Shown: piece by piece, positions 1-52,874 of the stretch | How positions within the stretch are numbered: the first letter of the stretch is position 1 | Layout: every line of letters starts with the position of its first letter | DNA from: Pocillopora verrucosa | Taxonomy: Eukaryota > Cnidaria > Anthozoa > Scleractinia > Pocilloporidae | Direction of reading: 5' to 3' | Assembly: GCF_036669915.1 (NCBI RefSeq) | Contig: NC_089321.1 | Location: forward strand, 17,503,598 to 17,567,597 | DNA length: 64,000 bases | The notes under the pieces: model-generated | The model's input: only the letters and a program-made list of their open reading frames with translations | Told to the model about the DNA's origin: nothing | The model's database searches: none | Made by a program: the position numbers and the translations under genes

Positions 1-82
1 TGTGCGAAATAATCTGCGAATTCAAGAACGTCCTTAAATCCTTCGGTATCTGGAACTGAAGCTTCGGTATCTATGAAGTCAT
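1..82 (-). CDS. Non-repeat exon at the left edge of the acidic repeat gene (partial)
   Basis: Left of the last repeat unit the minus strand changes character. After an AGAG acceptor (83-86) the phase-1 frame stays open to the window edge and reads DDFIDTEASVPDTEGFKDV, then LEFADYF. It is acidic but not the repeat motif, and the end looks like an amphipathic helix. It fits the first exon of a C-terminal domain, with the rest outside the window. The reading is short, so the boundary is tentative. Confidence 0.45.
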
Positions 83-3000
83 CTCTAGCAACGAGTGAAT
101 CTCCCTGCTAAGTTTCAGGGGGCTTACCTCCACCATCGATAGATTCAAGATCATCACCGTCGCTCCAGTCGTCTCCTTCATCGTCATCTAACTCACCTTT
201 AGTATAAAGAAGGTCATAAGTATCATTTTTATTCTGCTGTGAATTTCCGTGATAGGCTTCTTGGAGTTTACCTTTACTATTGACAGATTCAAGATCATCG
301 CCGCCTAACCACAGGGTTTCCTCGTCGTCATCCATCTCACCTTTAGCACAAAGAGAGTTATTAGTATCGTGTTAATTCTGCTGTTTATCTCCATGATAAC
401 TTCATGGGACTTACCTTCAGTGTCGGCTTCTTTGTCATCATCTAGCCCGCCTTTAGCGCAAAGAGAGTCATTAGTATAATCTTAATCCTCAATAAACATC
501 CATGTCACGTTGCATGGGGCTTACCTTCACTTTACCGATAGAATCATTCCCTAATTAAGTTCTGCGATCCTCCCATTAGCGAAAATAAGGCGTGAAAAAA
601 TTCAGGCCTGTACGGGATTTGAGCCCATGATCTGTGCGTTAACGGTTCAGCGCTCTACACAAATATGATCTTAGTTATTTATTCATCACTTCACGGGTTT
701 ATCACGAACCAACATAATGGCCGGCTCCCAGTTGGCTTGTTAGCTCAGTTGCTAGAGCGCTGCTAAAGTACTGTTCATTGCTGCAAAGATCGCTTCCATA
801 TTTAGAATCATTATTGTCACTTTCTCTCCACTCGGCTTCTTTAGAGCAATTGAGGTCACCTCCAGCAAAAATAATGCACTTAGTACTATTTTAATTCGAC
901 TGTGAATCTCCATGATAAGTTTTATGGGACCTACCTTCACTATCAATAGATTCATAATCATCACTGTCTCTCCAGTCGGCTTCTTCATCGTCATCCAGCT
1001 TACCTTTCGCAGAAAGAAAGTCGTTCGTATCATTTAAATTCCGTTGGGAATAATCTCCATGATAATGAATATAGAAACGATCCTGGCAATTATGAACACT
1101 ACTCAACTAGTAGTTGAAACAAGGCTTCATTATCAATAGATTCATTATCATCACCGTCCCTCCATTCATCTTCATCATCGTCATCTAACTCACCTTTAGC
1201 ACAAAAAGGGTTATAAGTAATCATTTAAATGTGCTGCAAATCTCCATAATTGCTTCATGAGGCTTACCTTCACCATTAATATATTTTTGATCATCATAGT
1301 CTCTCCATTCAGCTTCTACATCGTCATCCGACTCACCTTTAGCACGAAGAGAGTCGTTAGTATCATCTTCATTCTGCTATGAATCTCCATGGTAAGTTTT
1401 ATGGGGCTTACCCTCACTGTCGCTGGCATCATCATTATCACTGAATCTCCACTCTGCGTCTTCATCGTTATTTTCATAATCATCACTGTCTCTCCAGTCG
1501 GCTTCTTCATCGTCATCCAGCTCACCTTTCGTAGAAAGAGAGTCGTACGTATCATTTTAATTCCGTTATGAATCTCCATGATAAGTTTCTTGGGGCTTAC
1601 CTCCACTATCGACAGATTCAAGATCATCAGCGTCTCCCCACTCATCTTCTCCATTGAAATCCAACTCACCTTTAGCACAAAGAGGGTCATAAGTATCATT
1701 TTAAATATGCTTTAAATCTACATGATAGGTTCCATGAGGTTTACCTTCATTATCGATAGATTTATTATCATCACCGTTTTTCCATTCATCTTCATCATCG
1801 TCATCCAACTCACCTTCAGCACAAAGAGGGTCATTAGTATCATTTTAAATGTGTTGCGAATCTTCATGATATGTTTCATGAGGTTTACCTTCACTATCAA
1901 TAGTTTTTTTATCATCACCGTCTCTCCATTCGGCTTCTGTATCGTCATCCAACTCACCTTTAGCACAAAGAGAGTCGTTAGTATCATCTTCATTCTGCTT
2001 TAAATCTCCATGATAAGTTTCATGGGGCTTACCCTCACTGTCGCTGGTATCATGATTATCACTGAATCTCCACTCTGCGTCTTCATCGTTATCGGGCTCA
2101 CCTTTGAGACAAAGACAGTCCTTAGTATCGTCTTAGTTAAGCTGTGAATTTCTGTGTTGCGAATCTCCATATGTTTTATGAACCTTACCTTCACTATCAA
2201 TATCATTTTAAATGTGTTGCGACTCTTCGTGATAAGTTTCATGAGGCTTACCTTCACTTTCGTTAGCTTCAATATCATAACCGTCCCTCCATTCATCATC
2301 ATTATCATCATCCAACCCACCTTAAACACAATAGGGCACATTACTATCATATTAAATGTTTATGAATCTCCATGATATGTTTTATGAAGCTTACCTTCAC
2401 TATCAATAGATTTTTGATCATCATAGTCTCTCCATTCAGCTTCCACATCCTCATCCAACTCACCTTTAACACGAAGAGAGTCGTTAGTATCATCTTCATT
2501 CTGCTTTGAATGCCCATGATAAGTTTCATGGGGCTTACCCTCACTGTCGCTGGTATCATGATTATAACTGAATCTCCACCCTGCGTCTTCATCGTTATCG
2601 GGCTCACCTTTGAGACAAAGACAGTCCTTAGTATCGTCTTAGTTAAGCTGTGAATTTCTGTGTTGCGAATCTCCATATGTTTTATGAAGCTTACCTTCAC
2701 TATCAATATGTTTTTCATCATTACCGCCTCTTCTTCCGGCTTCGTCATCGTCATCCAGCTCACCTTTAGCACAAAGAGGCTTATAAGTAACATTTAAATA
2801 TTCTTTAAATCTATAATGATAGGTTTCATGAGGTTTACCTTCACTATCGATAGAAACATTATCATCACCATCCCTCCACTCATCTTCATCATCGTCATCC
2901 AACTCACCTTTAGCACGAAGAGAGTCGTTAGTATCATCTTGATTCTGCTATGAATCTCTACTTACTAAACCAACTACTGACCTTTAGCACATAGAGAGTC

Positions 3001-6000
3001 ATAAGTATAATTTTAAAGGTGCCGTATATCTGCATGATACGTTTAACGAGGCTTACCTTCACTATCGCTTGATTCACTATCATCACCGTCCCTCCATTCA
3101 TCTTCATCATCGTCATCCAACTCACCTTTTGCACAAAGAGGGTAATAAATATCATATTGAATGTGTTGCGAATCCCTATGACAAGTTCCACGGGGCCTAC
3201 CTTCACTATCGATAGATTCATTATCATCAGCGTCCCTCCACTCATCTTCATCATCGTCATCCAACTCATCTTAAGCAAGAAGAGAGTGGTTAGTATCATC
3301 TTGATTCCGCAATGAATCTCCATAATAAGTTTCATGAGGCTTACCCTCACTATCGCTAGTATCATGATTATCACTGAATCTCCACTCTGCATCTTCATCG
3401 TGATCGGGTTCACCTTTGAGACAAAGACAGTCCTTAGTGTCGTCTTAGTTAAGCTGTATATTTCCATAATATGTTTAATGTGGCATACCTTCATTATCGA
3501 TAGACTTAAGACCATCACCGTCTCGCCACTCAACCTCTTTATAATCATCAGGCTCGCCTTTAACAAATAAAAAGAAAGACTTTAGTTCCTCCTATTTTAA
3601 ATGTGTTGAGAATCTCCATGATATGTTTTATGAGGTTTACCTTCACTATCGATAGACTCATTATCATCACCGTCACTCCACTCTTCATCATCGTCATCCA
3701 ACTCACCTTCAGCACGAAGAGAGTCGTTAGTATCATCTTGATTCTGCTATGAATCTCCATGATAACTCTCATGGGCTTACCCTCACTATCGATGAAATCA
3801 TCATTATCTCCCTCTCTCCACTCTGCATCTTCAACGTTATCAGGCTCACCTTTAGGACAGACATTTTATCTTAGTATCGTCTTAGTTAAGCTGGAAATCT
3901 CCATGATAGCTTTCACAAGGCATACCTTCCTTATCGATAGATTCAAGATCATCACCTTCTCCCCGTTGGGCTTCTTTATATTCATACGGCTCGCCCGTAG
4001 CAGGTAGGAAGTGAGATACTGGTATCTCTTATTCTAGAATGGGTCTCCATGATACGCTATATGTGGCAAACCATCACTTTTGATCGATTCGTGATCATCT
4101 CTGTCTCTCCACTCATCTTCTTCATCATTAGAAAACTCACATTTCATACAAATAGAGTCATTTTAATAATCCTAATTCTACTGCAAATTTCTATGATAAG
4201 TTTTATGAAGTTTACCCTCACTATCAATAGATTCATAACCATCGCCGTCTCTTCATTCGGCTTATTCATCGTGATCCTACTCGTCACCTTTAGCACATAA
4301 AGAGTCATAAGTATAATTTTAAAGGTGCCGTATATCTACATGATACGTTTAACGAGCCTTACCATCACTATCACTTGATTCAGTATCATCACCGTCCCTC
4401 CATTCATCTTCATCATCGTCATCCAACTCACCTTTAGCAAAAAGAGGGTAATAAGTATCATTTTAAATGTGTTGCGAATCCCTATGACAAGTTTCCCGGA
4501 GCCTACCTTCACTATCGATAGATTCAATATCATCAGCGTCCCTCCACTCATCTTCATCATCGTCATCCAACTCATCTTTAGCAAGAAGAGAGTGGTTAGT
4601 ATCATCTTGATTCCGCAATGAATCTCCATAATAAGTTTCATGAGGCTTACCCTCAATGTGGCTGGTATCATGATTATCACTGAATCTCCACTCGGCATCT
4701 TCATCGTGATCGGGTTCACCTTTGAGACAAAGACAGTCCTTAGTGTCGTCTTAGTTAAGCTGTATATTTCCATAATATGATTCATGGGGCATACCTTCCT
4801 TATCGATAGATTCAAGATCATCACTTTCTCGCCACTCGGCTTCTTTATAATCATACGGCTCGCCTTTAGCAAATACAAAGCGTGACATCAGTATCTCTTA
4901 TTCTTGAATGGGTCTCCATGATACGCTATATGTGGCAAACCATCACTTTTGATCGATTCGTGATCATCTCTGTCTCTCCACTCATCTTCTTCATAATTAG
5001 AAAACTCACATTTCATACAAATAGAGTCATTTTAATAATCCTAATTCTACTGCAAATTTCCATGATAAGTTTTATGAAGTTTACCCTCACTATCAATAGA
5101 TTCATAACCATCGCCGTCTCTTCATTCGGCTTTTTCATCGTGATCCTACTAGTCACCTTTAGCACATAAAGAGTCATAAGTATAATTTTAAAGGTGCCGT
5201 ATATCTACATGATACGTTTAACGAGCCTTACCTTCACTATCACTTGATTCAGTATCATCACCGTCCCTCCATTCATCTTCATCATCGTCATCCAACTCAC
5301 CTTTAGCACAAAGAGGGTAATAAGTATCATTGTAAATGTGTTGCGAATCCCTATGACAAGTTTCCCGGAGCCTACCTTCACTATCGATAGATTCATTATC
5401 ATCAGCGTCCCTCCACTCATCTTCATCATCGTCATCCAACTCATCTTTAGCATCGTGATTGGGTTCACCTTTGAGACAAAGACAGTCCTTAGTGTCGTTG
5501 TAGTTAAGCTGTATATTTTTATAATATGATTCATGGGGCATACCTTCCTTATCGATAGATTCAAGATCATCATTTTCTCGCCACTCGGCTTCTTTATAAT
5601 CATAAGGCTCGCCTTTAGCAAATACAAAGCGTGACATCAGTATCTCTTATTCTAGAATGGGTCCCAATGATACGCTATATGTGGCAAACTATTACTTTTG
5701 ATCGATTCGTGATCATCTCTGTCTTTCCACTCATTTTCTTCATAATTAGAAAACTCACATTTCATACAAAGGGAGTCATTACAGTAATCTTATTTCTACT
5801 GCAAATCTGCATGATACGTTTTATGAAGTTTACCCTTACTATCAATAGATTCATAACCATCGCCGTCTCTTCATTCGGCATATTCATCATGATCCAACTC
5901 ACCTTTAGCACATAGAGAGTCATAAGTATTATTTTAAAGGTGCCGTATATCTACATGATACGTTTAACGAGGCTTACCTTCACTATCGCTATATTCATAA

Positions 6001-9000
6001 CCATTACCGTCCCTCCATTCATCTTCATCATCGTCATCCAACTCACCTTTAGCACGAAGAGATTTGTCAGTATCATCTTGATTCTGCTATGAATCTCCAT
6101 GATAACTCTCATGGGGCTTACCCTCACTATCGCTGAGATTATCATTATCCCCCTCTCTCCTCTCTGCCTCTTCAACGTTATCCGGTTCACCTTTGGGACA
6201 AAGACAGTCGATCCTTAGAATCGTCTTAGTTAAGCTGTGAATCTCCATGATAGTTTTTTACGAGGCATACCTTCCTTATCGATAGATTCAAGATCATCAC
6301 CGTCTCGCCACTCGGCTTCTTTATAATCATCCGGCTTGCCTTTAGCAAATACAAAGTGAGATATTAGTATCTCTTATTCTAGAATGGGTCTCCATGATAC
6401 GCTATATGTGGCAAACTATCACTTTTGATCGATTTGTATCATCTCTGTCTCTCCACTAAATCTTCTTCATCATTAGAAAACTCACATTTCATACAAATAG
6501 AGTCATTACAATAACCCTGATTCTACTGCGAATCTCAACGATAAGTTTTATAGGGTTTACCCTCACTATCAATAGATTCAAAACCATCACCGTCTCTTCG
6601 TTCGGCTTGTTCATCGTGATCCAACTACTCACCTTTAGCACTAAGAGAGTCATAAGTATAATTTTGAAGGTGCTGTATATCTATATGATACGTTTAACGA
6701 GGCTTACCTTCACTATCGCTTGATTCACTATCATCACCGTCCCTCCATTCATCTTCATCATCGTCATCCAACTCCCCTTTAGCACAAAGAGGGTAATAAG
6801 TATCATTTTAAATGTGTTGCGAATCCCTATGACAAGTTCCACGGGGCTTACCTTCACTATCGATAGATTCATTATTATCATGGTCCTTCCTCTCATCTTC
6901 ATCATCGTCATCCAACTCATCTTAAGCAAGAAGAGAGTGGTTAGTATCATCTTGATTCCGCAATAAATCTCCATGATAAGTTTCATGGGGCTTACCCTCA
7001 CTGTCGCTGGTATCATGATTATCACTGAATCTCCACTCGGCATCTTCATCGTGATCGGGTTCACCTTTGAGACAAACACAGTTCTTAGTATCGTCTTAGT
7101 TGAGCGGTATATTTCCATAACATGTTTCATGGGGCATACCTTCGTTATCGATAGATTTAAGATCATCACCGTCTCGCCACTCGGTTTCTTTATAATCATC
7201 CGGCTCGCCTTAAGCAAATACAAAGTAAGACATTAGTATCTCCTATTTTAAATGTGTTGCGAATCTCCATGATATGTTTTATAAGGTTTACCTTCACTAT
7301 CAATAGTTTTCTTATCACCACCGTCTCTCCATTCGACTTCTGCATCGTCATCTAACTCACCTTTAGCACAAAGAGAGTAAAAGTATCATTTTAAATGTGT
7401 CGCAAATCTCCGTCTCTCCACTCATCTTCTCCATCGAAACCCAACTCACCTTTAGCACAAAGAGGCTCATAAGTATCATTTTAAATATTCTTTAAATCTA
7501 CATGATATGTTTCATGAGGTTTACCTCCACTATCGATAGACTCATTATCATCACCATCCCTCCACTCATCTTCATCATCGTCATCCAACTCACCTTTAGC
7601 GCGAAGAGAGTCGTTAGTATCATCTTGATTCTGCTATGAATCTCCATGATAATTCTCATGGGGCTTACCCTCACTATCGATGAAATCATCATTATCTCCC
7701 TCTCTCCACTCTGCATCTTCAACGTTATCAGGCTCACCTTTAGGACAGACAGTTTATCTTAGTATCGTCTTAGTTAAGCTGGAAATTTCCATGATAGCTT
7801 TCACGAGGCATACCTTCCTTATCGATAGATTCAAGATCATCACCTTCTCCCCGCTCGGCTTTTTTATAATCATACGGCTCGCCCGTAGCAGGTAAGAAGT
7901 GAGATATTAGTATCTCTTATTCTAGAATGGGTCTCCATGATACGCTATATGTGGCAAACCACCACTTTTGATCGATTCGTGATCATCTCTGTCTCTCCAC
8001 TCATCTTCTTCATAATTAGAAAACTCACATTTCATACAAAGAGAGTCATTACAATAATCTTAATTCTACTGCAAATCTCCATGATGAGTTTTATGAGGTT
8101 TACCCTCACTACCAATAGATTCATAACCATCGCCGTCTCTTCATTCGGCTTATTCATCGTGATCCAACTTTAGCACATAGAGAGTCATAAGTATTATTTT
8201 TAAAGGTGCCGTATATCTACATGATACGTTTAACGGGGCTGACCTTCACTATCATAACCGTCTCTCCACTCATCTTCATCATCGTCATCCAACTCACCTT
8301 TAGCAAAAAGAGGGTAATAAGTATCATTTTAAATGTGTTGCGAATCCCTATGACAAGTTTCCCGGAGCCTACCTTCACTATCGATAGATTCAATATCATC
8401 AGCATCCCTCCACTCATCTTCATCATCGTCATCCAACTCATCTTAAGCAAGAAGAGAGTCGTTAGTATCATCTTGATTCCGAAATAAATCTCCATGATAA
8501 GTTTTATGAGGCTTACCCTCACTATCGCTAGAGTCATCGTTATCACCGTCTCTCCACTGTACATCTTCATCGTTATCGGGTTCACCTTTAGCACAAAGAG
8601 AGCACTTAGTATCGTCTTTATTAGGCTGTGAATCTCGGGAGTTTCATGGGGATACCTTTATTGTCGATAGATTCAAGATCATCACTGTCTCTCCAATCGG
8701 CTTCTTTATCATCATCCAGATCACCTACAGCGAATACAACGAGTTATTAATACCTCTTGAATTCTAGTATGAGCTTCCATGATGAGTTTCATGGGGCATA
8801 CCATAGCCATTGATAGACTCGTTATAATCTCTCACTTCAATCATCATCATCGTCATACAACTAACCTTTCATACAAAGAGAGTCATGAATATCGTTCTAA
8901 TCCTGCTCTGAATCTCCATGATAAGTTTTATAGGGCCTACCTTCACTATCAATAGATTCATAGTCCTCAGAGCCTCTCCATTTGGCTTCTTGATGGTCAT

Positions 9001-11141
9001 CCAGCTCACCTTTCACTGAAAGAGAGTCGTACTTATCATTTCAATTCCGCTGTGAATCTCCGTGATAAGTTTCTTTGGGGCTTACCTTCACCACCGACAG
9101 ACTCAAGATCATCACCGTCTCTCCACACGGCTTCTTTACTGCCATCCGCCTCACCTTAAACACAAACAGAGTCCTTAAAATCGGCTTAATTTGGCTGTGA
9201 ATCTTCATGATAACTTTCACGGGACCTACCTTCACTACCCATAGAATCGTTATCAATACGGTCACTCCACTCATCTTCTTCGTCGTCTTCCAACTCACCT
9301 TAAGCACAATGAGAGTAATTACCATGTTGTTAATTCTGATGTAAATTTCCATGATCAGTTTCATCGGATTTACCTTTACTATCGCTGGAGTCATCATCAA
9401 TATCGCCTATCCTTTCGGCTTCTTCATCGTCGTATACTTCACCTTTAGCAAAAATAGTTGGATTAGAATCATTTTCATTGCGCTTGTGATATGCATGATT
9501 TGTTCCATGGGGCTTAGCTTTACTATCGATAGAATCATTATCCTCACTTTCTCTCCACTCAGCTTCTGCATCATCATTTGGCTCACCTTTAGCGCAAAGA
9601 GAATTATTTGTATCAGCTTAATTCTGTTGTTAATCTCAAGCATATGTTTTTATGGGGTTTACCTTTACTTTCGCTAGATTCATCATCACCGTCTCTCCAT
9701 TTAGCTTCCTCTTCGTCTTCTGGCTCACCTTACGTACAAAGAGATTCATTAGTATCATCTCAATTCCACTGTGAATCTCCATAATACACTTCATGGGGCT
9801 TATCTTTATCATCGATAAAGTCATTATCATCACTGTCTCCCCATTCGACCTCTTCATCGTTTTCAAGCCCACCTTTAGGACAAAGAGAGTCTTAGTATTA
9901 TCTTAATTTCGTTGTAAATATCCATGATACGTTTCGTAGGGCTCACCGTCACTATCGATAAAGTCCTTATTGTTGTTGTCTCTCCACTCGGCTTCTTCAT
10001 CGTCATCTAACTCACCTTTGGCAAAAACAGAGTCATTAGCATCACCTTAATTGCGCTGTGAATCTTCATGACACGTTTCATGGGGTTACCTTCAATATCG
10101 ATAGATTCATCATCATCATTGTCTCTCCTGACGACTTCTTCATGGTGCACTAGTTCTCCTTTAACACAAAAAGATTCATAAGTATCAATTTTTATATTAA
10201 AATTCCTCCATGAGTCGCAACCTAATCGCCAGTAAAAATTTTCGCAAAATTACCTTAGTTTTACCATTAGTACTAAAGGAGTCATTAATATTAGAGTCAT
10301 TCTGGTGTAAAACTTCCGTTTCGGAATGGTTATTTTCAGAATCAAGAGCTTCATCTTTACTCTTTGAATTTTTGATAAATTATCGTTGAGAACTGACTTT
10401 TCCTTAGCTTAAGTTTAATTTGCTCAATGCTCCTAAAACTAAAAAAATTCGCGCGCATGACCTAAATGGATCACGAACTGTACAACTTAGAAAGATGGAG
10501 CTGAAATACGCTTGCACGCGTCACGGACTTTCGCGGGCTCACTCAGGGAAACCGTGAAAATGTAGGACATAAAGTAGTGAAAGTGCAGACTCGTCAAAGA
10601 AAAAGCGAAGTTTTTGAAAACTTTAGGTGCCTGAAATTTCATTCAGGGTTTATGGTTGCCGACATTCAACTAACGCGGATACACAACATATCCTTTGAAC
10701 ACTTCTGTTCCACGGTTTCACTCCAAATCAAACGACGAAAGCTGGCACCTAAGTACTTAAAACTCGGTAAAAACTCCTTTGTCCCATTTTTTATGCAATC
10801 ACTGACGCGCACAGGCGTTTCTCAACAATCGTCGCTTTGAAGTAGGTTACGTCTGGCAGCTCTGTGCTAATTACTTTCTTGTTGTTATAAGTTAGGTTAC
10901 ATTGTAATCACTCAATCGAAACAGATTCTAAATTTGATTAATAGAACTTCAGTTATCTGTTGGCCAGTGATGCGACAAGACGGCATTCTCGGTTCATCGG
11001 TTAACTAGGACATAATTCAGGAACGGACAAGAATGTTTACCTACCATCACTCATTAGTGGTCTTAATCTTGGAATGGGCCGAGCATTGATTCCTAGTTGT
11101 GCGTACACAACCAAGAACACAATCCCGACCCACAATTTCAT
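1..11141 (-). CDS. Secreted acidic repeat protein, multi-exon, 3' end beyond the window
   Basis: No homologue recognised. Seen: an upstream exon (11141-11045) encodes a typical signal peptide and ends in phase 1. The region 10158-128 carries tandem 144-bp units in which a 69-nt block encodes a 23-residue motif like ELDDDDEDEWRDGDD then ESIDSEG. Each block is preceded by an AAAG acceptor with a TACTAAC-like branch site about 20 nt upstream and followed by GTAAGC or a similar donor. All blocks are phase 1-1. I traced 49 blocks that are bounded by splice motifs, have lengths divisible by 3 (69, 66, 54, 36 or 114 nt) and are open where translated. Spacers often hold in-frame TAA and have lengths such as 70, 74, 76, 80 and 83 nt. 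Inference: an extracellular Asp/Glu-rich protein of more than 1,100 residues, possibly calcium-binding or part of skeletal or mucus matrix. The join between the signal exon and the first repeat is unresolved. Confidence 0.6.
577..763. mobile_element. tRNA-derived SINE pieces inserted in the array
   Basis: The plus strand at 733-763 has a tRNA A-box context (ttagctcagttgctagagcg). The minus strand of 606-660 has the matching middle of a tRNA head with a B box (GGCTCAAATCC) followed by a T-run. Head and tail point in opposite directions, so at least two fragments or an inversion are present. The neighbouring repeat units (525-575 and 780-859) are the degenerate ones. Confidence 0.6.
1066..1128 (-). 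mobile_element. SINE tail fragment
   Basis: This stretch replaces the normal spacer between repeat exons at 935-1003 and 1125-1193. It contains the palindrome caactagtagttg and removes the donor of the 1125-1193 exon. I recognise it as similar to the body of the tRNA-derived SINE at 577-763, from general knowledge of coral repeats rather than an alignment. Confidence 0.4.
3926..8160 (-). repeat. Higher-order repeat inside the acidic array, with a dead A/B unit pair
   Basis: A block of about five to six 144-bp units recurs. Its marker, a type A unit starting with gggtctccatgatacgctat or a close variant, lies at 4041, 4910, 5659, 6386 and 7929, spaced 869, 749, 727 and 1543 bp. Type A units have lost both the AG acceptor (AAAG became AAATG) and the GTAAG donor (now GTTTGC). 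The adjacent type B unit carries in-frame stops (the Trp codon is TGA, with extra TAG/TAA). The A/B pair would be skipped as one long intron without changing frame. Confidence 0.6.
10159..11044. other. Spacer between the repeat array and the signal exon
   Basis: The minus strand of about 10355-10265 is open and acidic (KDEALDSENNHSETEV, then LHQNDSNINDSFSTN) and ends at a phase-1 donor (G|GTAAAA at 10265/10264). It is probably a diverged first repeat or a linker exon, but its only plausible acceptor (CAAAG|AG) is phase 0, which does not match the signal exon. I see no other convincing exon between 10400 and 11044. Confidence 0.35.
11045..11141 (-). CDS. Signal-peptide exon of the acidic repeat gene
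   Basis: Reading the minus strand from the ATG at 11141 gives MKLWVGIVFLVVYAQLGINA, then RPIPRLRPLMSD, then a G followed by GTAGGT. This is a short basic start, a hydrophobic core and an Ala-X-Ala-like cleavage site (after INA), followed by an Arg/Pro-rich stretch. The exon is 97 nt and ends in phase 1, matching the phase of every repeat exon downstream. A second possible donor (TAG|GTAAAC, 4 nt further on) would give phase 2. No other downstream gene on this strand could take a signal exon, so I assign it to the repeat gene. That link is inference. Confidence 0.6.
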
Positions 11142-19679: not shown

Positions 19680-20051
19680 TTACTTGCTGCTGGTGTACTT
19701 GGTCACAGCCTTGGTTCCTTCACTAACGGCGTGTTTAGCCAGTTCGCCGGGCAGAAGCAGCCTAATGGCGGTCTGGATCTCGCGAGAGCTGATGGTTGAT
19801 TTCTTGTTGTAGTGAGCGAGACGGGATGCTTCGGTGGCGATGCGCTCGAAGATGTCGTTAACGAACGAGTTCATGATGCCCATGGCTTTGCTGGAGATAC
19901 CAGTGTCAGGGTGAACTTGCTTCAACACTTTGTAGATGTAGATGGCATAGCTTTCTCTTCTCTTTCCTCTCCTCTTTTTCTTTCCATCAACAATAGCCTT
20001 CGCCTTTCCGGCTTTCTTCTCGCCCTTCTTTCCTGCAACTTTAGCTGGCAT
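19680..20051 (-). CDS. H2B: Histone H2B, copy A
   Basis: Core histone that dimerises with H2A in the nucleosome. 123 residues, intronless: a Lys-rich tail ([19 protein letters not shown]), then the histone fold with [19 protein letters not shown] and the conserved C-terminal helix ending [10 protein letters not shown] start at the Met of MPAKV. The frame is open a further 57 codons upstream, but a TATA box (20099-20106) lies inside that stretch, so it is 5' flank. It is divergent from H2A, with 318 bp between start codons. Copy B differs at one residue that I see (Val or Ala in the tail). The stem-loop downstream marks it as replication-dependent. Confidence 0.97.
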
Positions 20052-20369
20052 ATTGTTAAATAACGAAGATTGATGGTTGTGAAGCGTTGTTCGGTTTGTA
20101 TTTATATCGGAATTGTGAAAGGATCTATTACCATACGGATCGAAATTCTCGATCGATGATTGGCTTATTCTTATACTGACCCCGGGGGTTAATTTCCATG
20201 TCATTCTCTCTTTGTTCAACAATATTGCGATGACATTTAATTATACGAAACTTGCTACTGATTGGTGCTTTTCGATCCTTCCAGCATAATAAACCAACTA
20301 TAAATATCAGAACTAGTAAAAAGTTCACTATTCACTCTTGTTGAAAGCAATTAAACAAGTCGTATCGAC
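20052..20369. promoter_or_regulatory. Shared H2B/H2A divergent promoter, copy A
   Basis: Two TATA boxes face outward: TATAAATA on the minus strand at 20099-20106 for H2B and on the plus strand at 20299-20306 for H2A. Inverted CCAAT motifs (attgg) lie at about 20159 and 20261. This is the usual arrangement for a replication-dependent H2A/H2B pair. Confidence 0.8.
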
Positions 20370-20750
20370 ATGTCAGGTCGCGGTAAAGGTAAAGCTAAGG
20401 GTACCAAGTCCAAGAGCCGCTCATCCCGAGCAGGGCTTCAATTCCCAGTTGGTCGTATCCATCGTCTTCTCCGCAAAGGCAATTACGCGGAGCGTGTTGG
20501 CGCTGGTGCTCCTGTGTATTTGGCTGCTGTGCTCGAATATCTGAGCGCTGAAATCCTCGAGTTGGCAGGTAACGCTGCGCGTGACAACAAAAAGACAAGA
20601 ATCATTCCCCGTCACCTTCAGCTGGCTGTCCGTAATGACGAGGAGTTGAACAAACTGCTCGCCGGGGTCACCATCGCACAGGGAGGTGTTCTTCCCAACA
20701 TCCAGGCCGTACTTCTGCCTAAGAAGACTGAGAAGAAACCCAAGGCCTAA
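20370..20750 (+). CDS. H2A: Histone H2A
   Basis: Canonical H2A of 126 residues, intronless: [20 protein letters not shown] tail, [20 protein letters not shown], the acidic-patch segment [18 protein letters not shown] and a C-terminus ending [12 protein letters not shown]. The end lacks the SQ[E/D] motif of H2A.X and the features of H2A.Z. It shares a divergent promoter with H2B, and a stem-loop follows at 20775. It is the only H2A in the window, because the copy B equivalent has been deleted. Confidence 0.97.
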
Positions 20751-20774
20751 ATCAGCTTTAACACGTTTAAAAAC

Positions 20775-20790
20775 GGCTCCTTTAGGAGCC
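20775..20790 (+). terminator. Histone 3' stem-loop of H2A
   Basis: GGCTCCTTTAGGAGCC, 25 nt after the H2A stop; standard SLBP site. Confidence 0.95.
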
Positions 20791-20974
20791 ACCAAATATT
20801 ACAAAAGTCTTAACCAACTAGATACGATAGAGTGAACATGAATAAGGAGAACTATCAAGTAATGATTAACCAGTATATCACTTAAAAACCCTTCCTCTCT
20901 AGTTTCTAGTTTATAAAATCTGCAGTATCTCGGAAAATGAATGTTGTTAAAAGACCAAATGCATTTTATAAAGC

Positions 20975-21047
20975 TTTCGCGCGCCAAAATCTAGCCCCAT
21001 CGAAAATTTACCCGACCCAAATGCGTGTGAGAACTTTCGCGCCTAAA
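20975..21047 (+). promoter_or_regulatory. Pair of E2F-like sites, copy A
   Basis: TTTCGCGCGCCAAAA at 20975-20989 and TTTCGCGCCTAAA at 21035-21047 resemble the E2F consensus TTTSGCGCSAAA. Both have counterparts in copy B (27029-27043, 27089-27101). They lie between H2A and H4, more than 800 bp from the H4 start, so their target is unclear. Confidence 0.5.
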
Positions 21048-21530
21048 TCGTTAGTCGTTACACTTCTGTTATGTCGACGTCACAGGCGATTATAAGAAAC
21101 TACGCCTGAATATGATGATTGGGATTTACACATGTATTGCTCAGTATCTATTCATGAGAGAAACAAAAAGAAACTCGGAATGGAAAAAAAGCTAACAGTG
21201 ATCTTAAGCACGTTCCTAACAAGCGGGCTCAGTGGTTGCAACTGAGAAAAATTGGTACAAATAATTCACATGTAAAGCACAAGGTTAGAGAACGAATAGA
21301 GAAGGCGAAGCCAGGCTTCAAACCTTGCACGCTAGGGAGATTTCATTTATCACTCCTATGTGGGCAAACTCCTTTTATTTTTCCTGCGCCACTTAAACCT
21401 TTCCGTGACGCGCGCAGATTATGCGATCATTTCTTTTTGTAAGTAAGAAGTAGGAGCGAAGTATATAGAATCTAAATGGACTGCAAAAAAGCAAACTTAT
21501 TTATTGGTCAGGACTTCCCTTAGATTTGGT
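21048..21530. other. H2A-H4 spacer, copy A
   Basis: No gene. A stretch near 21228-21335 has weak tRNA-like A- and B-box words (gggctcagtggttg and ggcttcaaacc), but copy B does not preserve them and there is no clover-leaf. I do not call an RNA gene. Confidence 0.4.
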
Positions 21531-21546
21531 GGCTCCTAAAAGAGCC
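21531..21546 (-). terminator. Histone 3' stem-loop of H4 copy A
   Basis: Minus strand GGCTCTTTTAGGAGCC, 26 nt past the H4 stop. One G-U pair in the RNA stem, otherwise standard. Confidence 0.95.
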
Positions 21547-21572
21547 GTTTGTTTTTTGTCAGTGGTGCCTGT

Positions 21573-22787
<1,215 letters not shown>

Positions 22788-22812
22788 GCAGACTCCACTT
22801 CAAATCACAAAC

Positions 22813-22828
22813 GGCTCTTTTAGGAGCC
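22813..22828 (+). terminator. Histone 3' stem-loop of H3 copy A
   Basis: GGCTCTTTTAGGAGCC, 25 nt after the stop. Confidence 0.95.
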
Positions 22829-23698
22829 ACCACATAAATAAAAGCAATGACCAATTTACGAGCTCCTAACTAAAAGAAATTAGCCCAACCTTTCTTCATT
22901 TACACTATGTGCATGTTATTTTGTTGTTTTGTTGTTTTATTATGCAAATATGTCGTTCTTCCTGATACATTTTGACACCTTTCGGATGTTATAGTTTTGT
23001 TCTTCTTATTCGAGGCCACCCTTCCTTTGAATATGCGCCACTTTTTTCATACAAAAGTTACTCCCAAACATTTTGTAAGATTTTACGCCGTTAACTAACG
23101 AACGACTGCTTTAGTGTTAGCCCCATGACTTGTTAGCCCCATCTCCAAGTCATTTTCTTCGTTCGAGACATTAAGGATACCTTTTATCAAGGTCACGTAT
23201 TAAATAGTGGAGGCTATAGTTTTGTTCTTCCATTTCGAGTTTAGAGGCTGCTCTGCCTTTGAATATGCATCAAAAACTGATTTTTTTTCATATTAATGAA
23301 AATTTAGTTATTGATATTTCCTATAATATCTAAAATGTTCATAACAAGTGACTGAAACTGAACTTCTTTGCGCATTTTCCAAAGTTTTCTTCGTAATCTC
23401 ACTGCTCTAGAGAATTTTGAGACTAAAATGTCATTCATGATTTGAGTAATTCAAAGTAAATTTTACATACACATTTTGTGAGAGAACTTATCTAAGCTCT
23501 GTATAGTTAGGTAAGATCTGAAGTTATTGAATGGGCTCGTTATCGACCAAAATGTCAAACAAACTAACACAGTTCGGACGACGCCATTTTGATATAACCC
23601 TGTTTCCTCAGTGGTCCGTACACAATGGATAATTTCTTCCTTGCGCGCTCTAAGTAATCATTTCTTGTCTTTGTTCCGAAGGTTCTGTGGCACCCAAC
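22829..23698. other. H3-H1 spacer, copy A, with a repeated ~95-bp element
   Basis: A motif containing ttatagttttgttcttctt, then a gaggc block and cctttgaatatgc, occurs at about 22985-23047 and 23186-23280. It recurs at 29307-29400 and 29930-30025 in copy B. The 150 bp before H1 hold an actaacacagtt word and a gacgacgcc block kept in both copies, plausible H1 promoter elements. Confidence 0.45.
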
Positions 23699-24241
23699 AT
23701 GTCCAAAGAAAAGACCTCAGCTAAAAAAAAGCCAGCCGAGCATCCACCTTATGCAGACATGATCAAAGCTGCTCTCTTAGCGTTGAAAGAGCGAAATGGT
23801 TCTTCCCGCCAAGCCATCGAGAAGTACATCAAAGCCAACTACAAGGTTGGTGAGGTCAGCTCGCACTTGAAGATGGCTTTGAAAAGGGGCGCCACTAGTG
23901 GAAAGTTTGTCCACACCAAGGGAGTCGGTGCTTCTGGTTCGTTTAAGTTAGCTAAGGAGGGAATGAAGGAGAAGAAGCCGATGAAAAAGCCAGCTGCAAA
24001 GAAGAAGCCTGCAGCCAAGCCAAAGAAACCCGCCGCCAAGAAGACAGCAAAGAAACCAGCGGCAAAGAAGGCTGCAAAGAAACCTGCCGTTAAAAAGACA
24101 GCAGCGAATAAACCTGTGGCCGAAAAGCCAGCGGCAAAGAAACCCGTTGCCAAAAAGCCAGCTGCTGCAAAGAAGACCGCAGCTAAAAAGCCCGCTAAGA
24201 AAGCAGCGAAGAAATCGCCAAAGAAGACCGCCAAGAAATAA
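23699..24241 (+). CDS. H1: Linker histone H1, copy A
   Basis: Linker histone of 180 residues that binds nucleosome entry/exit DNA. A short Lys-rich N-tail ([16 protein letters not shown]) leads into the winged-helix globular domain (about residues 15-85: [55 protein letters not shown]). The long basic C-tail consists of [12 protein letters not shown] repeats. I start at the ATG at 23699; the GTG 12 nt upstream is in frame but is not the start seen in copy B. Copy B is 185 residues, differing mainly by tail repeat number and in the N-tail. Confidence 0.96.
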
Positions 24242-24279
24242 AACCCCAAGGAGGGAAACAACTTTTCATTTCACCAAAC

Positions 24280-24295
24280 GGCTCCTATAGGAGCC
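24280..24295 (+). terminator. Histone 3' stem-loop of H1 copy A, loop variant
   Basis: GGCTCCTATAGGAGCC: the stem is perfect but the loop is TATA instead of TTTA. All other eight stem-loops here keep TTTA. The SLBP loop consensus is UYUN, so the second loop base is off consensus. Confidence 0.9.
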
Positions 24296-24684
24296 ACCAC
24301 ATTTGAGAAAAAGTTATGACCAACTGAGTATTGATATCGTCTTCGGTAATTCAGTTTAACTTATTATATTTTCAAATGTAGCTCATGATAACTATAAGCA
24401 GTACAGAGCGGGTTCGCACTAAGCCCGCTGAAAAGTCTAAGCCCTGATAGTGACCAAAATCTCAGTTCTTTCTGCACTGAAATCTTGAACCGTTTATTAA
24501 GCTCACGAGAAGAGAGTAAATTATTTCCAATCTTAGACGCTTTGATAATTAAACAAATTATCCTTGTCAGTACTTCCCAAGGAAAATGATCGAGAAGTGT
24601 AAGGAGAATATGGATGCTTTAACCCTTTAACTCCCAGTTCAAATTTTTAATTCTCCTTACTGTCAGCCATACATTTCTTATGAT
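24296..24684. other. Post-H1 tail and duplication junction
   Basis: The tail after H1 matches 31051-31375 after copy B's H1. From about 24618 a TTAACCCTTTAACTCCCA inverted-repeat end begins, so a small dispersed repeat sits at or near the junction with copy B (24685). Confidence 0.5.
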
Positions 24685-24854
24685 GAAAAGCAGCCCACTC
24701 ACTGCATCTGTTCATTCTACTTAATTCATAACTGAAAATTGTTTGTGCGCATTTTCCATGGCGTAATCTGTACGTCTGAACAGCAGTTTATGTCAGATTG
24801 AAGCTTGAATCTTAGGCTATGTAGTAATTAAGTACTTTCTATCTTCACTGTTAG

Positions 24855-24881
24855 GGTTTATTCAGTGCTGAGGACTTCAAG
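24855..24881 (+). pseudogene. Duplicated last exon of ATP6V1F, stop lost
   Basis: After a kept acceptor (ttcactgttag) the block encodes GLFSAEDFK exactly as the true last exon (18221-18250), with one synonymous change (GCA to GCT). The stop codon is missing because about 40 bp downstream were deleted, so the frame runs into former 3' flank (AAG then AAT GAA). Flanking similarity spans about 24685-25120 versus 18050-18635. It lies 6.6 kb past the real gene on the same strand and has no other ATP6V1F exons. Confidence 0.85.
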
Positions 24882-25144
24882 AATGAATTTGGAAAATTTG
24901 TACAAAATTTATTTGATATGTAACTAATCCTAATCTTATTATTTTGATTGGAAGCTTGAATTTCAATTTTTTAGACCTTTGGCTGAAAATGCCGGACGTA
25001 AATAGGAAATGGAAAAGAAAATCTGAGAGTAAACAATCAGAAACAACAGAAAACAGATGAAAATGAGAGATCATGAACAGACTGTCAAAGATATGCTGTG
25101 TTTCTTATACCAGCCCTAATTAAGGTTCAAACGCTCTGTATTTA

Positions 25145-25352
25145 CTTAAAATTTTAACTCTCATGAGTAGCTAAGACAGAAATTCCACAGACTATCAATG
25201 TCAAGCACTCAGTGGATGAAATAAAAAAAAATATCAATGTGGGGATTACTAGTTGATCTAGTACCAAATTCTCCAAACTGACACTATAAGAATTGTATAA
25301 CAGACAGCAAGGAGAATTGCCAATGAGATGTTGGGAGTGAAAGGGTAAAGGC
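25145..25352. mobile_element. Small inverted-repeat element (MITE-like)
   Basis: Begins with aattttaactctcatgag and ends with tgttgggagtgaaagggt; internal phrases match the copies at 33935-34142 and 36048-36250. No coding capacity. The rest of 25353-26214 has no gene, only spacer that matches copy A in patches. Confidence 0.5.
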
Positions 25353-26214
25353 TAAATTTTAAATTATAAATAAACCACAGAGGAATTTGATTTGGCCAAA
25401 ACAAAAGTGACATAGTGGAAAGCAGAAACCCAATGCTACTTATGACTCCGCCGCTTATGATTCACTGGAAACCAGATTGAAAAAGGTTTGTGCCATCAGA
25501 GGACCTCAAGTCCTGCTTCGTGATTTAGGTTCATTTCCGTCTTTGCCTTTTTACTCCATCAATGCTTTGCATAGATTATAGGCATGTGAAATTTAAGGAA
25601 AACCGAAATACTTCTTAGATAATTTCATGCTTAGGCTTCTAGAAAATTAAGTTCATAAACTATTCCATTGCATCGTATGTTAAAGCCTCACTGTAATAAA
25701 GCATTTAAAGGTTCTGATAAGACTTATTGCTTGGTGAATTTAAAAACATAGAGCGCTGTACAAGTCCTTGGTGGCTGTAGGGGATGAAGTTGACTTATTT
25801 TATATGTGACTTTCACAGATGAATATTTTGGGTCTAGATTGGTACCTAACAACAATTATTAGCTCGTCTAACTATCGCTTCGGGAATATTTAACCGCGGT
25901 TGGTCAGAGATTAGGAAGAAGCTACCGTTGGCAATTAAAAAACCTGGCTCATCAGAGTATTTTTTTGTGGAAAAAAAAAGTTAACGATAGTAATTGTGGT
26001 TTATCCATGACCCATACGTGCTTCATCATTTCTGACATTCTTTTGGATAAAAGGAAATTTACGCGGTCAGTTTAAAAACGGAAAATACAAAAACACTTTG
26101 CTAAAAGAAAACTTTAGGTCAACGGGAACATTATATTTGATAGAAACGATATTCAGGGGAAAATTTTCTTTTAGTCTCCTATTGCGTCGATAATTGACTT
26201 TCATGACATTTGGT

Positions 26215-26230
26215 GGCTCCTAAAGGAGCC
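26215..26230 (-). terminator. Histone 3' stem-loop of H2B copy B
   Basis: Minus strand GGCTCCTTTAGGAGCC, 33 nt past the stop as in copy A. Confidence 0.95.
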
Positions 26231-26263
26231 GTTTGTTTTAGGCGGGAAACCCACTGGGTGAGT

Positions 26264-26635
26264 TTACTTGCTGCTGGTGTACTTGGTCACAGCCTTGGTT
26301 CCTTCACTGACGGCGTGTTTAGCCAGTTCACCAGGCAGAAGCAGCCTAATGGCAGTCTGGATCTCGCGAGAGCTGATGGTTGATTTCTTGTTGTAGTGAG
26401 CGAGACGGGATGCTTCGGTGGCGATGCGCTCGAAGATGTCGTTAACGAACGAGTTCATGATGCCCATGGCTTTGCTGGAGATACCAGTGTCAGGGTGAAC
26501 TTGCTTCAACACTTTGTAGATGTAGATGGCATAGCTTTCTCTTCTCTTGCCTCTCCTCTTTTTCTTTCCATCAGCAATAGCCTTCGCCTTTCCGGCTTTC
26601 TTCTCGCCCTTCTTTCCTGCAACTTTAGCTGGCAT
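26264..26635 (-). CDS. H2B: Histone H2B, copy B
   Basis: 123 residues, intronless, the same protein as copy A except Ala for Val in the N-tail (KAIADGKKK). The histone fold and the AVTKYTSSK end are intact, and the TATA and stem-loop are kept. Its former divergent partner H2A is gone, so it is now fired from a promoter whose other side is orphaned. As in copy A, the frame upstream of the Met is open by chance through the TATA region. Confidence 0.97.
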
Positions 26636-26975
26636 CTTGTTAAATAACGAAGATTGATGGTTGTGTAGCGTTGTTGGGTTTGTATTTATATCGGAATCGT
26701 GAAAGGATCTATTACCATACGGATCGAAATTCTCGATCGTTAATTGGCTTATTCTTATATTGACCCCAGGGGTCAATTTGCATGACATTCTCTCTTTATT
26801 CAAATATATTACTAGGATATTAAATATATGAAACTTGCTACTGATTGGTGCTTTTCGATCCTTCTAGCATAATAAACGAACTATAAATATCAAAAGTGGT
26901 AAAAAGTTTACCATTCACTCTTGCTGAAAGCACTCAAAGCAGTTCGTAGTTTGATGCCATAAAGGTAAAAAATCT
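26636..26975. promoter_or_regulatory. H2B promoter with orphan H2A promoter, copy B
   Basis: Collinear with 20052-20380. The H2A-side TATAAATA is kept at 26882-26889, and the start-region remnant (gatgccataaaggtaaaa) is at 26953-26970. It then jumps to sequence equal to copy A 20917 onward (aatctacggtatctcgg). The H2A coding region and its stem-loop, about 540 bp, are missing. Confidence 0.85.
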
Positions 26976-27028
26976 ACGGTATCTCGGGAAATGAATGTTG
27001 ACAAACGACCAAATGCATTTGAAAAAGC

Positions 27029-27101
27029 TTTCGCGCACCAAAATCTAGCTCCATCGGAAAATTTCTCGACCCAAATGTGTGTATTAACTTTCGCGCCAAA
27101 A
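27029..27101 (+). promoter_or_regulatory. Pair of E2F-like sites, copy B
   Basis: TTTCGCGCACCAAAA at 27029-27043 and TTTCGCGCCAAAA at 27089-27101. The second is a perfect match to TTTSGCGCSAAA. They are conserved in place relative to copy A while much of the nearby spacer changed. Confidence 0.55.
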
Positions 27102-27557
27102 TCGTTAGTCGTTACACTCTTGTTATGTCGACGTCACTGGCGGTAATTAATAAATTGCGCCTGAATATGATGATTTTGATTTATACATTTGCTGCACGTT
27201 ACACTTATGCGAGAAACGAAACGAAACTCGGAATGAAAAGAAAGCCGACAGTGATCTCATGCGGGTGACTAACAAGTGGGCCCATTGATTGCAACTAAAA
27301 AAAATGGTACTTATAATTCATATGTAAAAAACAATAAGAACAAATAGAGAAGGCTTTCAATCGTGTATGCCAGGTATATTTTATCCTTCCTATGCGGGCT
27401 TTTTTTTTTCTTGCGCCACTTAGACCCTACCATGACGCGCGCAGATAATGCGATCATTTTCTTTTGTAAACAAGAAGTATGAGCGAAGCATATAGAATCT
27501 AAATGGACTGCAAAAAAGCAAACACATTTATTGGTCAGGACTTTCCTTATATTTGGT

Positions 27558-27573
27558 GGCTCCTAAAAGAGCC
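27558..27573 (-). terminator. Histone 3' stem-loop of H4 copy B
   Basis: Minus strand GGCTCTTTTAGGAGCC, 26 nt past the stop. Confidence 0.95.
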
Positions 27574-27599
27574 GTTTGTTTGTTGTTAGTGGTGCCTGT

Positions 27600-28825
<1,226 letters not shown>

Positions 28826-28850
28826 GCAGACTCCACTTCAAATCACAAAC

Positions 28851-28866
28851 GGCTCTTTTAGGAGCC
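28851..28866 (+). terminator. Histone 3' stem-loop of H3 copy B
   Basis: GGCTCTTTTAGGAGCC, 25 nt after the stop. Confidence 0.95.
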
Positions 28867-30443
28867 ACCACATAAAGAAAAGCAATGACCAATCTATGAG
28901 CCCCTGTTGACCTAAATAAATTCTTAAAATATAAAATGCGACACTGAAGAGAAGTTGAATCCATTGAAATTGTTACACCATGTTTGCTCGGTGCGCGTCT
29001 TGGCGACAATACAGACATATAAGTTATGTCTGGCCTATATCCGTGCTTAGGAACACACCATGTCTTCATTTCTTAAGTAACCTAAAGAAACTAACCTTAC
29101 CTTTCTTCATTTACACTTCGTGCATGTTATTTTGGCGCTAATCATTATATGAATATGCCGCGATAACTGATACATTTTGCCATCTTTTGGATCTGTTTCT
29201 TACATCACGATACTTGTTTTCTCACGCTTGACTTACATGATGCATGAAATGTAAAATTGCAATGTAAACTACACTTACTTCTTTCGAATTAGCACACCGC
29301 TTATCAAGTCAAGTATGAAAAGGCGGAAGTCATAGGTTTGTTCTTCTTGTTCGAATTTAGAGGCCGGCCTTCCTTTGAATATGCATCATTTTTTCATACA
29401 AAAGCGAAATTAAGGACCCTTTCCATCCTGCCGTAACGTTATGATGTAACTAAACTTAAATTTTCTTTTCTGGGGTAGTTGGTCTGACTGGAATCCGGTA
29501 CCTACTAAATTGTGTCGGACAAATTATTCCCATTCGATCGATAATTAAATAAACTGGATATTCGCAAATAGTCTGCTGTTTCGCGTCCCTCTAAATCGCA
29601 CACCTCACCTCAGAGGAAGCCTACTGCAGCGTTTAGCAAAAAGATTACATTGCCAACTAATTATAAGTTTTTTTTTCGTGAATGAATTTGCCACATTTTG
29701 AGAAAATATTCTCTCTAACTTAACTCCGCTCTTGGCATGAAAATCTGATAAGAAGTCGACAGCGCGCAACCGTCAACCGGTTCATACAAAACTGTCTCTT
29801 CAGTAAAGCAAGGCAAATCCACCAAAATAACATCAAAGCGTTTTTCAATCGCCCTTCGTTTCAAACGATTGCTTCAATGTTACCCCATCTCTAAGTCTTT
29901 TTCTTTGTTCGAGACATTTAGCATACCTCTTATTAAGGTCACGTATGAAATGGCGGACGTTATAGTTTTGTTCTTCTTGTTCAAGTTTAGAGGCTTCTCT
30001 GCCTTTGAATATGCATCGAAAGGCTATGTATTTCATACAAAAAAAAAATTAAGGAATCAATCTTGCTGATAATTCTTAAAATGCTGATAAAAGGTGACTT
30101 AAACTGAAGTTCTTTGCGCATTTTTCCAAAGTTCTTTCGTAGTCTTACCGCGTTGTAGATTTTTGAGCCTTAAATGTCATTCTTAATTTGAGTAATTTAA
30201 AGTAAATTTTACATCCACATTTTATGAGAGAACGTAGCTAAGTTCTCTATAAATAGAAAAGATCTGAAGTAATTGAATAAGCTCGTTATCGACCAAAATG
30301 TCAAGCAAACTAACACAGTTTAGACGACGCCATTTTAGTCTAACCCTGTTTCCTCAGTGGTCCGTACGTGAGGCATAATATTTCTTTGCGCGCTCTAAGC
30401 AGTCATTACTTGTCTTAGTTCCGAAGGTTTTACAGCACACAAC
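28867..30443. other. H3-H1 spacer, copy B
   Basis: About 1.58 kb against 0.87 kb in copy A. No gene. It holds two copies of the cctttgaatatgc element (29307-29400, 29930-30025) and the conserved block before H1. The extra length (about 28905-29100 and 29400-29850) has no counterpart in copy A and no recognisable element. Confidence 0.4.
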
Positions 30444-31001
30444 ATGTCCGAAGCAAAGTCACCATCTAAGAAGAAGCCAGCTGCGCCCAAAAAGCCAGCC
30501 GAGCATCCACCTTACGCAGACATGATCAAAGCTGCTATCTTAGCGTTGAAAGAGCGAAATGGTTCTTCCCGCCAAGCCATCGAGAAGTACATCAAAGCCA
30601 ACTACAAGGTGGATGAGGTTGGCTCGCACTTGAAGATGGCTTTGAAGAGGGGCGCCACCAGTGGAAAGTTTGTCCACACCAAGGGAGTCGGTGCTTCTGG
30701 TTCGTTTAAGTTAGCTAAGGAGGAAAAGAAGGAGAAGAAGCCAAAGAAAAAGCCAGCCGCAAAGAAGAAGCCTGCAGCCAAGCCAAAGAAACCCGCCGCC
30801 AAGAAGACAGCGAAGAAACCAGCGGCGAAGAAGGTTGCAAAGAAACCCGCCGCTAAAAAGCCAGTAGCGAAGAAACCAGTGGCTAAAAAACCAGCGGCAA
30901 AGAAGCCTGCGGCTAAAAAACCAGCTATAAAGAAGCCCGCAGCTAAAAAGCCCGCCAAGAAAGCAGCGAAGAAATCGCCAAAGAAGACCACCAAGAAATA
31001 A
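30444..31001 (+). CDS. H1: Linker histone H1, copy B
   Basis: 185 residues: N-tail [20 protein letters not shown], winged-helix globular domain ([20 protein letters not shown] and following, with [10 protein letters not shown] where copy A has [10 protein letters not shown]), then a C-tail of [14 protein letters not shown] repeats. The tail repeats differ in number and order from copy A, as expected from slippage or unequal exchange in a repetitive coding tract. Stem-loop at 31035 with the standard loop. Confidence 0.96.
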
Positions 31002-31034
31002 AAACCCAAGGAGGGAAGCAACTCTTCACCAAAC

Positions 31035-31050
31035 GGCTCCTTTAGGAGCC
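31035..31050 (+). terminator. Histone 3' stem-loop of H1 copy B
   Basis: GGCTCCTTTAGGAGCC, 33 nt after the stop, standard TTTA loop unlike copy A. Confidence 0.95.
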
Positions 31051-31375
31051 ACCACATTTAAGAAAAAGTTATTATCAACTGAGTGTTGATGTAGCCTTCG
31101 GTAATCCAGTGTAAATTCACGATATTTTCAATCGTGGACCATGATAAATGCAGTAGAGAGCAGATTCGCATTGAACCCGCTGACAAATCTTTAAACTCTT
31201 GCAGTAACCCCCATTTCATTTCCTTTCACAGTAATATCCAAAAAAAAACCATAAAATCTTGAGAAGAAAGTTCATTGTCTCCAACCTTGAAATTTGATTG
31301 TTGAACAAATTGTTCTTGTCAGTACTACCAAAGGAAATATATTAAGAAGTATATGGAGAATGTGGATGCTTTAGG

Positions 31376-52857: not shown

Positions 52858-52874
52858 TTGGTGCCGTGACCAGG

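Follow-up and report, generated by a model that had tools for sequence, protein, structure and literature searches.

A predicted mini-exon gene on the minus strand

The window, i.e., the whole stretch of 64,000 nucleotides of Pocillopora verrucosa DNA that was analysed, carries on its minus strand a predicted gene that runs from position 11141 to 128, the extent first noted, and then into a terminal exon (Table 1). The original prediction of tandem mini exon-intron units along this stretch was borne out, as 64 exon-spacer blocks and a signal exon were placed in it. The signal peptide of exon 1 was called by eye, and 29 of 33 residues of this exon (four changes) are identical to a protein of Stylophora pistillata, P0001. 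The terminal exon begins after TTCATAG with the phase kept, and it was followed into the neighbouring 10 kb (L001), where AATAAA is present at L001 9615, after the stop codon; 30 of 46 aligned residues of this exon are identical to the C-terminus of P0001. The terminal exon completes the predicted gene, which thus comprises a start, an array and an end. For candidate exon 2, homology was found to the tail of the unit's exon together with the following spacer (nhmmer E 5.8e-8), with a local score of 58 that exceeds those of all 2000 shuffles (19.3 ± 3.4). Its donor is gone, it is without a stop at the spacer's usual stop position, the pyrimidine tract (by eye) and the acceptor context are weak, and the region gave no match to P0001 at E 0.01; it may be a dead unit instead of an exon.

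Table 1. Features of the window, in window coordinates.
Feature	Position	Strand	Description
Exon 1	11045..11141	−	97 nt; start codon; putative signal peptide MKLWVGIVFLVVYAQLGINARPIPRLRPLMSDG; ends in phase 1 (ATG/GTAGGT)
Candidate exon 2	10265..10354	−	90 nt; open; phase 1-1
Mini-exon array	128..10158	−	64 exon-spacer blocks placed, 49 of them intact; most have a 69-nt exon and a 75-nt spacer
First array mini-exon	10090..10158	−	69 nt
Broken block 11	8802..8865	−	Stops; length 64; AG/GT present; the 5′-most block of this kind
Stop-bearing class, example	6561..6632	−	Class of blocks 16, 28, 33, 38, 44; AG/GT present; donor AGG/GTAAAC
Lost-acceptor class, example	4941..5009	−	AAAT for AAAG; blocks 17, 29, 34, 39, 45; open in 4 of 5
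Fused exon	1412..1525	−	114 nt; two mini-exons joined in frame, spacer lost
Insertion in 3′ part of array	590..700	−	Contains tRNA-3′-half-like stretch GGCTCAAATCCCGT... (by eye)
Short mini-exon	415..450	−	36 nt; open; phase 1-1
Terminal exon start	1..70	−	DTEASVPDTEGFKDVLEFADYF...; extends out of the window by 91 bases, as far as L001 9910; ends EIAW-stop
Histone clusters	19680..31075		Two copies
Deoxynucleoside kinase gene, part	38245..38634	−	Pfam dNK, E 8e-19
PNMA/gag-like match	45847..46248	−	Weak; E 1.4e-4, below the Pfam cut-off
LTR-type retroelements	51748..60627	+ and −	Two, on opposite strands, adjoining or nested
Retroelement (+)	~52.8-57.7 kb	+	DUF5641 and integrase matches

To segment the array, a unit profile was scanned along the minus strand, where it matched 75 times with E values of up to 10; the 64 blocks are those with both borders placed by homology, and six remnants (rows 21, 53, 59, 67, 69, and 70 of the segmentation list) are excluded from every count. 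Tandem Repeats Finder reports a 144-bp period over most of 1.5-10.2 kb. A block is termed intact, or usable, if it is preceded by AG, followed by GT, divisible by 3 in length and open in phase 1-1. There are 49 such blocks (48 by script and the 36-nt exon, whose frame was read by eye), which is the number of exon blocks traced in the original prediction. The usable exons span 36-114 nt and are mostly of 69 nt, the length of 54 of the 64 blocks. Block lengths had been described as divisible by 3, which is true for 62 of 64 and fails for two, vs. 38 of 58 spacers of up to 130 nt (Fisher p 7e-6; the copies are not independent). The blocks had also been described as open where translated, which fails for seven of the 64, where stops are present. 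In-frame stops were said to recur in the spacers, and a stop in the exon frame is indeed found in 47 of these 58. The proposed TACTAAC-like branch site was confirmed in part: a TACT-type site lies at −26 to −30 for 32 of the 48 intact window exons, and is found in only 24 of the 62 short introns of the second gene, on C1, described below. Invariance of the branch point was considered and dropped as evidence, since the last A of TACTAA is invariant in the 36 window spacers of 75 nt and fails across both arrays (in the window, 33/33 between intact blocks and 56/57 overall).

The array has been duplicated block-wise, with pairs of ~200-1200 bp at 90-96% identity, and stretches without units occur in its 3′ part, e.g., 256 bases near 803-547. 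The insertion at 590-700 is possibly a SINE; ARAGORN reported no tRNA for it. Elsewhere in the window, H2B, H4, H3, and H1 were recognized by eye in the histone clusters, along with five histone 3′ stem-loops, and the ORF list has H2A (110 aa or more) for the first copy alone. The retroelement on the plus strand is one that we take to be BEL/Pao-like, and the element on the minus strand has an integrase-core ORF and RT-like ORFs.

Broken blocks amount to 15 of 64 in the window: six are without the acceptor AG, one is without AG and carries a stop, two are without the donor GT, four carry a stop, and two carry a stop and a frameshift. Many of these losses recur as two adjoining classes that were copied along with the block duplications. 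The frame would survive the blocks with a dead splice site, provided that these are skipped. Six stop-bearing blocks (11, 16, 28, 33, 38, and 44; two also frameshifted) keep AG and GT, so that if all competent blocks are spliced in, the frame ends after seven array repeats. The donors of these blocks match the consensus at 6 of 9 positions in all six cases, while donors as weak are present in only 2 of the 48 intact exons. Five of the six look, however, like copies of one ancestor, which leaves about two independent events, and in terms of U1 pairing energy 7 of the 48 intact donors are weaker than the −6.2 of the stop-bearing class. For the stop-bearing blocks this leaves skipping, a role as poison exons, or a failing window copy.

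The Stylophora protein and the C1 paralog

The Stylophora protein ("protein PFC0760c-like isoform X9," 822 aa, E 2e-64) was the sole match among the best 7987 candidates, i.e., those with the most shared words, of 5.8 billion proteins. Further general protein searches, by a method that needs shared 5-residue words, gave nothing beyond it, and it has 0 Pfam families and 0 PDB sequence matches. Among five papers naming PFC0760c none was on corals, judged by title, and among the papers listed by the literature searches none was seen to describe this protein in corals. P0001 contains fifteen contiguous repeats of 21-23 aa that are joined as ...SEG/ELD... without spacer residues, and these repeats meet where the predicted splice junctions of the window gene fall. 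They consist of Asp and Glu in 54% and have Trp in 14 of 15. The two share the signal exon, acidic Trp repeats and C-terminal exon; P0001 differs in having 15 contiguous repeats instead of 49, and roughly 370 residues between the signal and the repeats. Neither the window nor its 230 kb of flanks matched residues 34-400 of P0001, part of which is found on C1. P0001 is a predicted model, known here as a protein only, and its repeats could share one exon. RefSeq isoforms are usually backed by RNA-seq.

Translated, the consensus exon of the window array reads GELDDDEEAEWRDGDDNESIDSE; the G that follows is completed over the splice junction. The predicted repeats are of ~23 residues each, with Trp in 43 of 48 and few Lys or Arg, and peptide types are GELDDDDEDEWR, GEPDGDEDVEWR, and ESIDSEG. 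The repeat region has 49% Asp+Glu and a computed pI of 4.05, which is probably the program's floor; both values come from a 48-exon product in which a cryptic donor was used for block 6 and which is without the fused and the 36-nt exons. Acid-conserving replacement was considered and dropped: of the 154 changed cells at Asp/Glu sites, 49 remain acidic vs. 20% expected, but 21 turn basic vs. 9%, with no clear signal.

A second gene of the same build was found by whole-genome search at ~C1:19,410,000-19,423,500. All 98 candidates of this search were scored, and the counts are lower bounds: at least 32 matches, of which at least 29 are in the window gene and at least 3 at C1:19,411,302-19,423,428. 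No nearby paralog was found at E 1e-3 in the 230 kb of flanks or in the rest of the window. In the C1 stretch analysed (C1:19,404,001-19,424,000, L024 and L025) 66 of 69 placed blocks are intact, 65 of these being consecutive in the list, and 68 of 69 block lengths are divisible by 3; five partial matches, one of them inside the 65-block run, are excluded, and the picking of borders favoured AG and GT, not length or open frame. The C1 paralog is similar to the window gene in its signal exon (26/33 vs. P0001), phase 1-1 mini-exons, short spacers, mostly of 74 or 75 nt, and terminal exon, which is a downstream ORF that by eye resembles the C-terminus of P0001. It differs in its almost intact array, in being largely a 287-bp dimer (19.3 copies with 93% matches in L024; 10.8 copies with 79% in L025), and in keeping Stylophora-like N-terminal stretches, as parts of it match P0001 within residues 34-100 and 353-432. 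Its short introns have an exon-frame stop in 31 of 62 and are divisible by 3 in 30 of 62. Across both arrays, in 73 distinct spacers of 73-76 nt only the starting G and T and the ending A and G reach 98% identity, which is partly due to the selection of blocks for GT and, on C1, for AG.

Probable coding function and the weighing of other readings

We consider it highly probable that the window gene is one of two paralogous stony-coral genes whose predicted product, a repeat protein, is encoded by tandem phase 1-1 mini-exons. With similarly high probability this product would be secreted and hyper-acidic, and it is probably disordered. The secreted Asp/Glu repeat protein put forward in the original prediction is in agreement with the Stylophora protein, the terminal exon and the C1 array, all at the level of sequence. 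In the proposed mechanism pre-mRNA splicing would remove the ~75-nt spacers. With phase 1 at both borders of each exon, units could be added or removed by gain, loss, fusion or skipping without a frameshift; unequal exchange would change the protein length freely, and blocks with a lost splice site would be left out of the mRNA. Outside the cell the product might serve as a long polyanion of the calcium- or mineral-binding kind.

To assess selection, changes were counted by parsimony over a tree that comprises 47 units of the window, and were treated as independent. The branches of intact blocks carry 176 nonsynonymous and 67 synonymous changes along with 273 in the spacers, which gives dN/dS of 0.70 (z −2.5, p 0.013) vs. 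0.93 for broken blocks; relative to the spacer rate, nonsynonymous changes stand at 0.92 and synonymous at 1.32. The original prediction would be contradicted by exon blocks that evolve as rapidly as spacers; overall they change about as rapidly, and this check goes partly against it. In our judgement P0001 and the C1 array outweigh this unfavourable comparison. Pairwise NG86 dN/dS is 0.44 between the two arrays, 0.35 among the window units, and 0.58 among those of C1; this method ignores transition bias and tends to read lower. Constraint on the exon blocks exists and is slight, which might be expected of redundant acidic repeats. Position 3 of the exon codons is the most variable (entropy 0.86 vs. 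0.68 and 0.59), while the spacers, read in the same register, peak at position 1 (0.93 vs. 0.63 and 0.67). Over all branches of the tree six stops arose vs. 13.6 expected (p 0.018), but since the tree omits the stop-bearing blocks 11, 16, 28, 38, and 44, the window copy avoids stops only weakly; the same comparison on intact branches (3 vs. 10.0) is circular, as intact blocks were selected for having no stop, and was discarded.

The block-wise duplications of a tandem array, and the about equal divergence of exons and spacers, are what a non-coding satellite with blocks open by chance would present. We regard this as highly improbable, because the Stylophora protein uses the same frame, the signal and terminal exons match it, 66 of 69 placed blocks on C1 are intact, and the excess of third-position variation in exons is absent from spacers; also for the C1 array taken alone, a satellite without coding function is very unlikely. 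Still less credible, and close to being dismissed, is a single unspliced ORF of 48-residue repeats, although parts of the window have a +1 frame that stays open across both exon and spacer, with ORFs of up to 207 aa, and the 75-nt spacers carry a stop in this frame in 13 of 36 vs. 28 of 36 in the exon frame. In the 69-nt blocks the order is reversed (8/54 with a stop in the +1 frame vs. 2/54 in the exon frame), 20 of the 58 short spacers are not divisible by 3, and codon periodicity as well as the Stylophora protein use the exon frame; C1 spacers of 74/75 nt make a 287-nt dimer that is not divisible by 3, and this counts against one long ORF. Both a satellite and a long decayed ORF had been called poor fits already in the original prediction, and the nearly intact C1 array, its 74/75-nt introns and the frame of P0001 uphold that opinion. 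A different question, which is compatible with the mini-exon gene, is the origin of the spacers. They might have begun as coding sequence, by intronization or by tandem duplication of an AGGT-bordered coding piece; tandem duplication is reportedly a described route to introns (PMC4974935). The modal spacer length of 75 nt, the nine of 58 short spacers that are divisible by 3 and wholly open, and the homology of candidate exon 2 to exon tail plus spacer speak for it: as exon 2 and these open spacers show, spacers either can serve as coding sequence or did so in the past. The consensus sequences of exon and spacer are also slightly alike (29 of 2000 shuffles as good), but the likeness is marginal (95 of 2000 in a local test), exon 2 may be a dead unit or a spacer that was exonized later, and the polarity needs outgroup DNA. 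On balance a coding origin is rather doubtful.

Somewhat short of an even chance, and the likeliest of the readings set beside the mini-exon gene, is that the window copy is a decaying paralog and C1 the working gene, the transcripts of the former being cut short or destroyed. This does not conflict with the mini-exon model for the gene family as a whole. The 15 of 64 broken blocks vs. 3 of 69 on C1, the stop block that keeps AG and GT after only seven good repeats, the weak constraint, and the unit-free stretches in the 3′ part all point to decay. However, the signal and terminal exons are open and conserved with Stylophora, 49 exons are still usable, and the weak consensus donors of the stop-bearing blocks would favour their skipping, an argument itself limited by the near-common ancestry of these blocks and by U1 energies that are not the weakest. 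Dead units are present in the window copy, which may be weakening.

The mini-exons also start like donors (AAG/GTGAGT): GTRAG opens 28 of 48 intact exons in the window and 60 of 66 on C1, so that a new 5′ splice site would form on splicing to the previous exon. In 28 of the 48 window exons the U1 pairing of this site equals or exceeds that of the exon's own donor, with equal mean energies (−8.2 and −8.2), and on C1 its consensus match is at least as good in 37 of 65. Such a design is that of RS-exons, in which, likewise, the exon start recreates a donor after splicing (PMC6224609); what sets the present case apart is that most of an array of paralogous exons would be of this type, the recreated sites being putative. 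In recursive splicing the recreated donors would let some exons go in a second step, giving many lengths and clearing stop units. Besides GTRAG starts in the majority of both arrays, the name "isoform X9," which suggests several isoforms, favours it, as does the rarity of human putative RS-exons, which make up only 3.6% of exons by a MaxEntScan threshold (PMC6224609; here consensus and U1 pairing were used). At Drosophila Bx, donor competition decided exon inclusion (PMC8605326). Yet of the human putative RS-exons 93.8% are constitutive, and re-splicing is under repression by the exon junction complex (PMC6224609), and in synonymous conservation codons 1 and 2 rank only 11th and 12th of 22. 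An excess of GAG at codon 2 (35/42 vs. 43/164 elsewhere in the window array, p 1.5e-11; 35/37 vs. 29/107 on C1) had been a candidate sign of selection for a donor-like start and was dropped as evidence, as the control by position ranks these codons in the middle. We find it unlikely that recursive splicing operates here, and equally so that the two coral genes are arrays of ~50-66 recursive-splicing exons, with protein length stochastic at the RNA level and spacers that are maybe intronized coding repeats. If it were true, the spliceosome would keep or discard any repeat without a frame shift, and dead or stop-bearing units would be cleared in a second step.

Significance and comparison with known systems

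With the whole exon-intron cassette as the repeat unit, the genome could lengthen, shorten or fuse the protein with the reading frame safe. The two paralogs offer a natural comparison of a nearly intact, homogenized array with one that has dead units, and the gene family makes testable how 50-66 near-identical splice sites in 10 kb are spliced, whether the exon junction complex represses recreated donors in a cnidarian, and how fast the length of an acidic, possibly mineral-binding protein changes.

Many small symmetrical exons are known from the genes of titin and collagen. The micro-exon genes (MEGs) of schistosomes encode a secreted product mostly in very small symmetrical exons (PMC4350168). 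The window gene, as a predicted model, is like them in secretion and in having most of its coding sequence in small symmetrical exons, 49 of them in phase 1-1; its exons are not of micro-size, since 54 of 64 blocks are of 69 nt. Micro-exons of MEGs are of up to about 36 nt, and thus shorter, and mostly unlike each other, in contrast to the similar tandem copies and the hyper-acidic product of the window gene; alternative splicing yielding many variants is a further mark of MEGs. By composition the predicted protein resembles coral acid-rich proteins (CARPs/SAARPs), which are described as secreted, with above 30% acidic residues and very low pI (PMC8086859). Occlusion in the skeleton and precipitation of aragonite are further marks of that class. 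Its 49% Asp+Glu and its computed pI of 4.05, probably a floor value, lie within the range of such proteins (about 30% or more; pI 3-4.5), and it differs from them in its long regular repeats with Trp. What looks new here, by scale and regularity, is an exon-plus-intron cassette amplified satellite-like in two paralogs.
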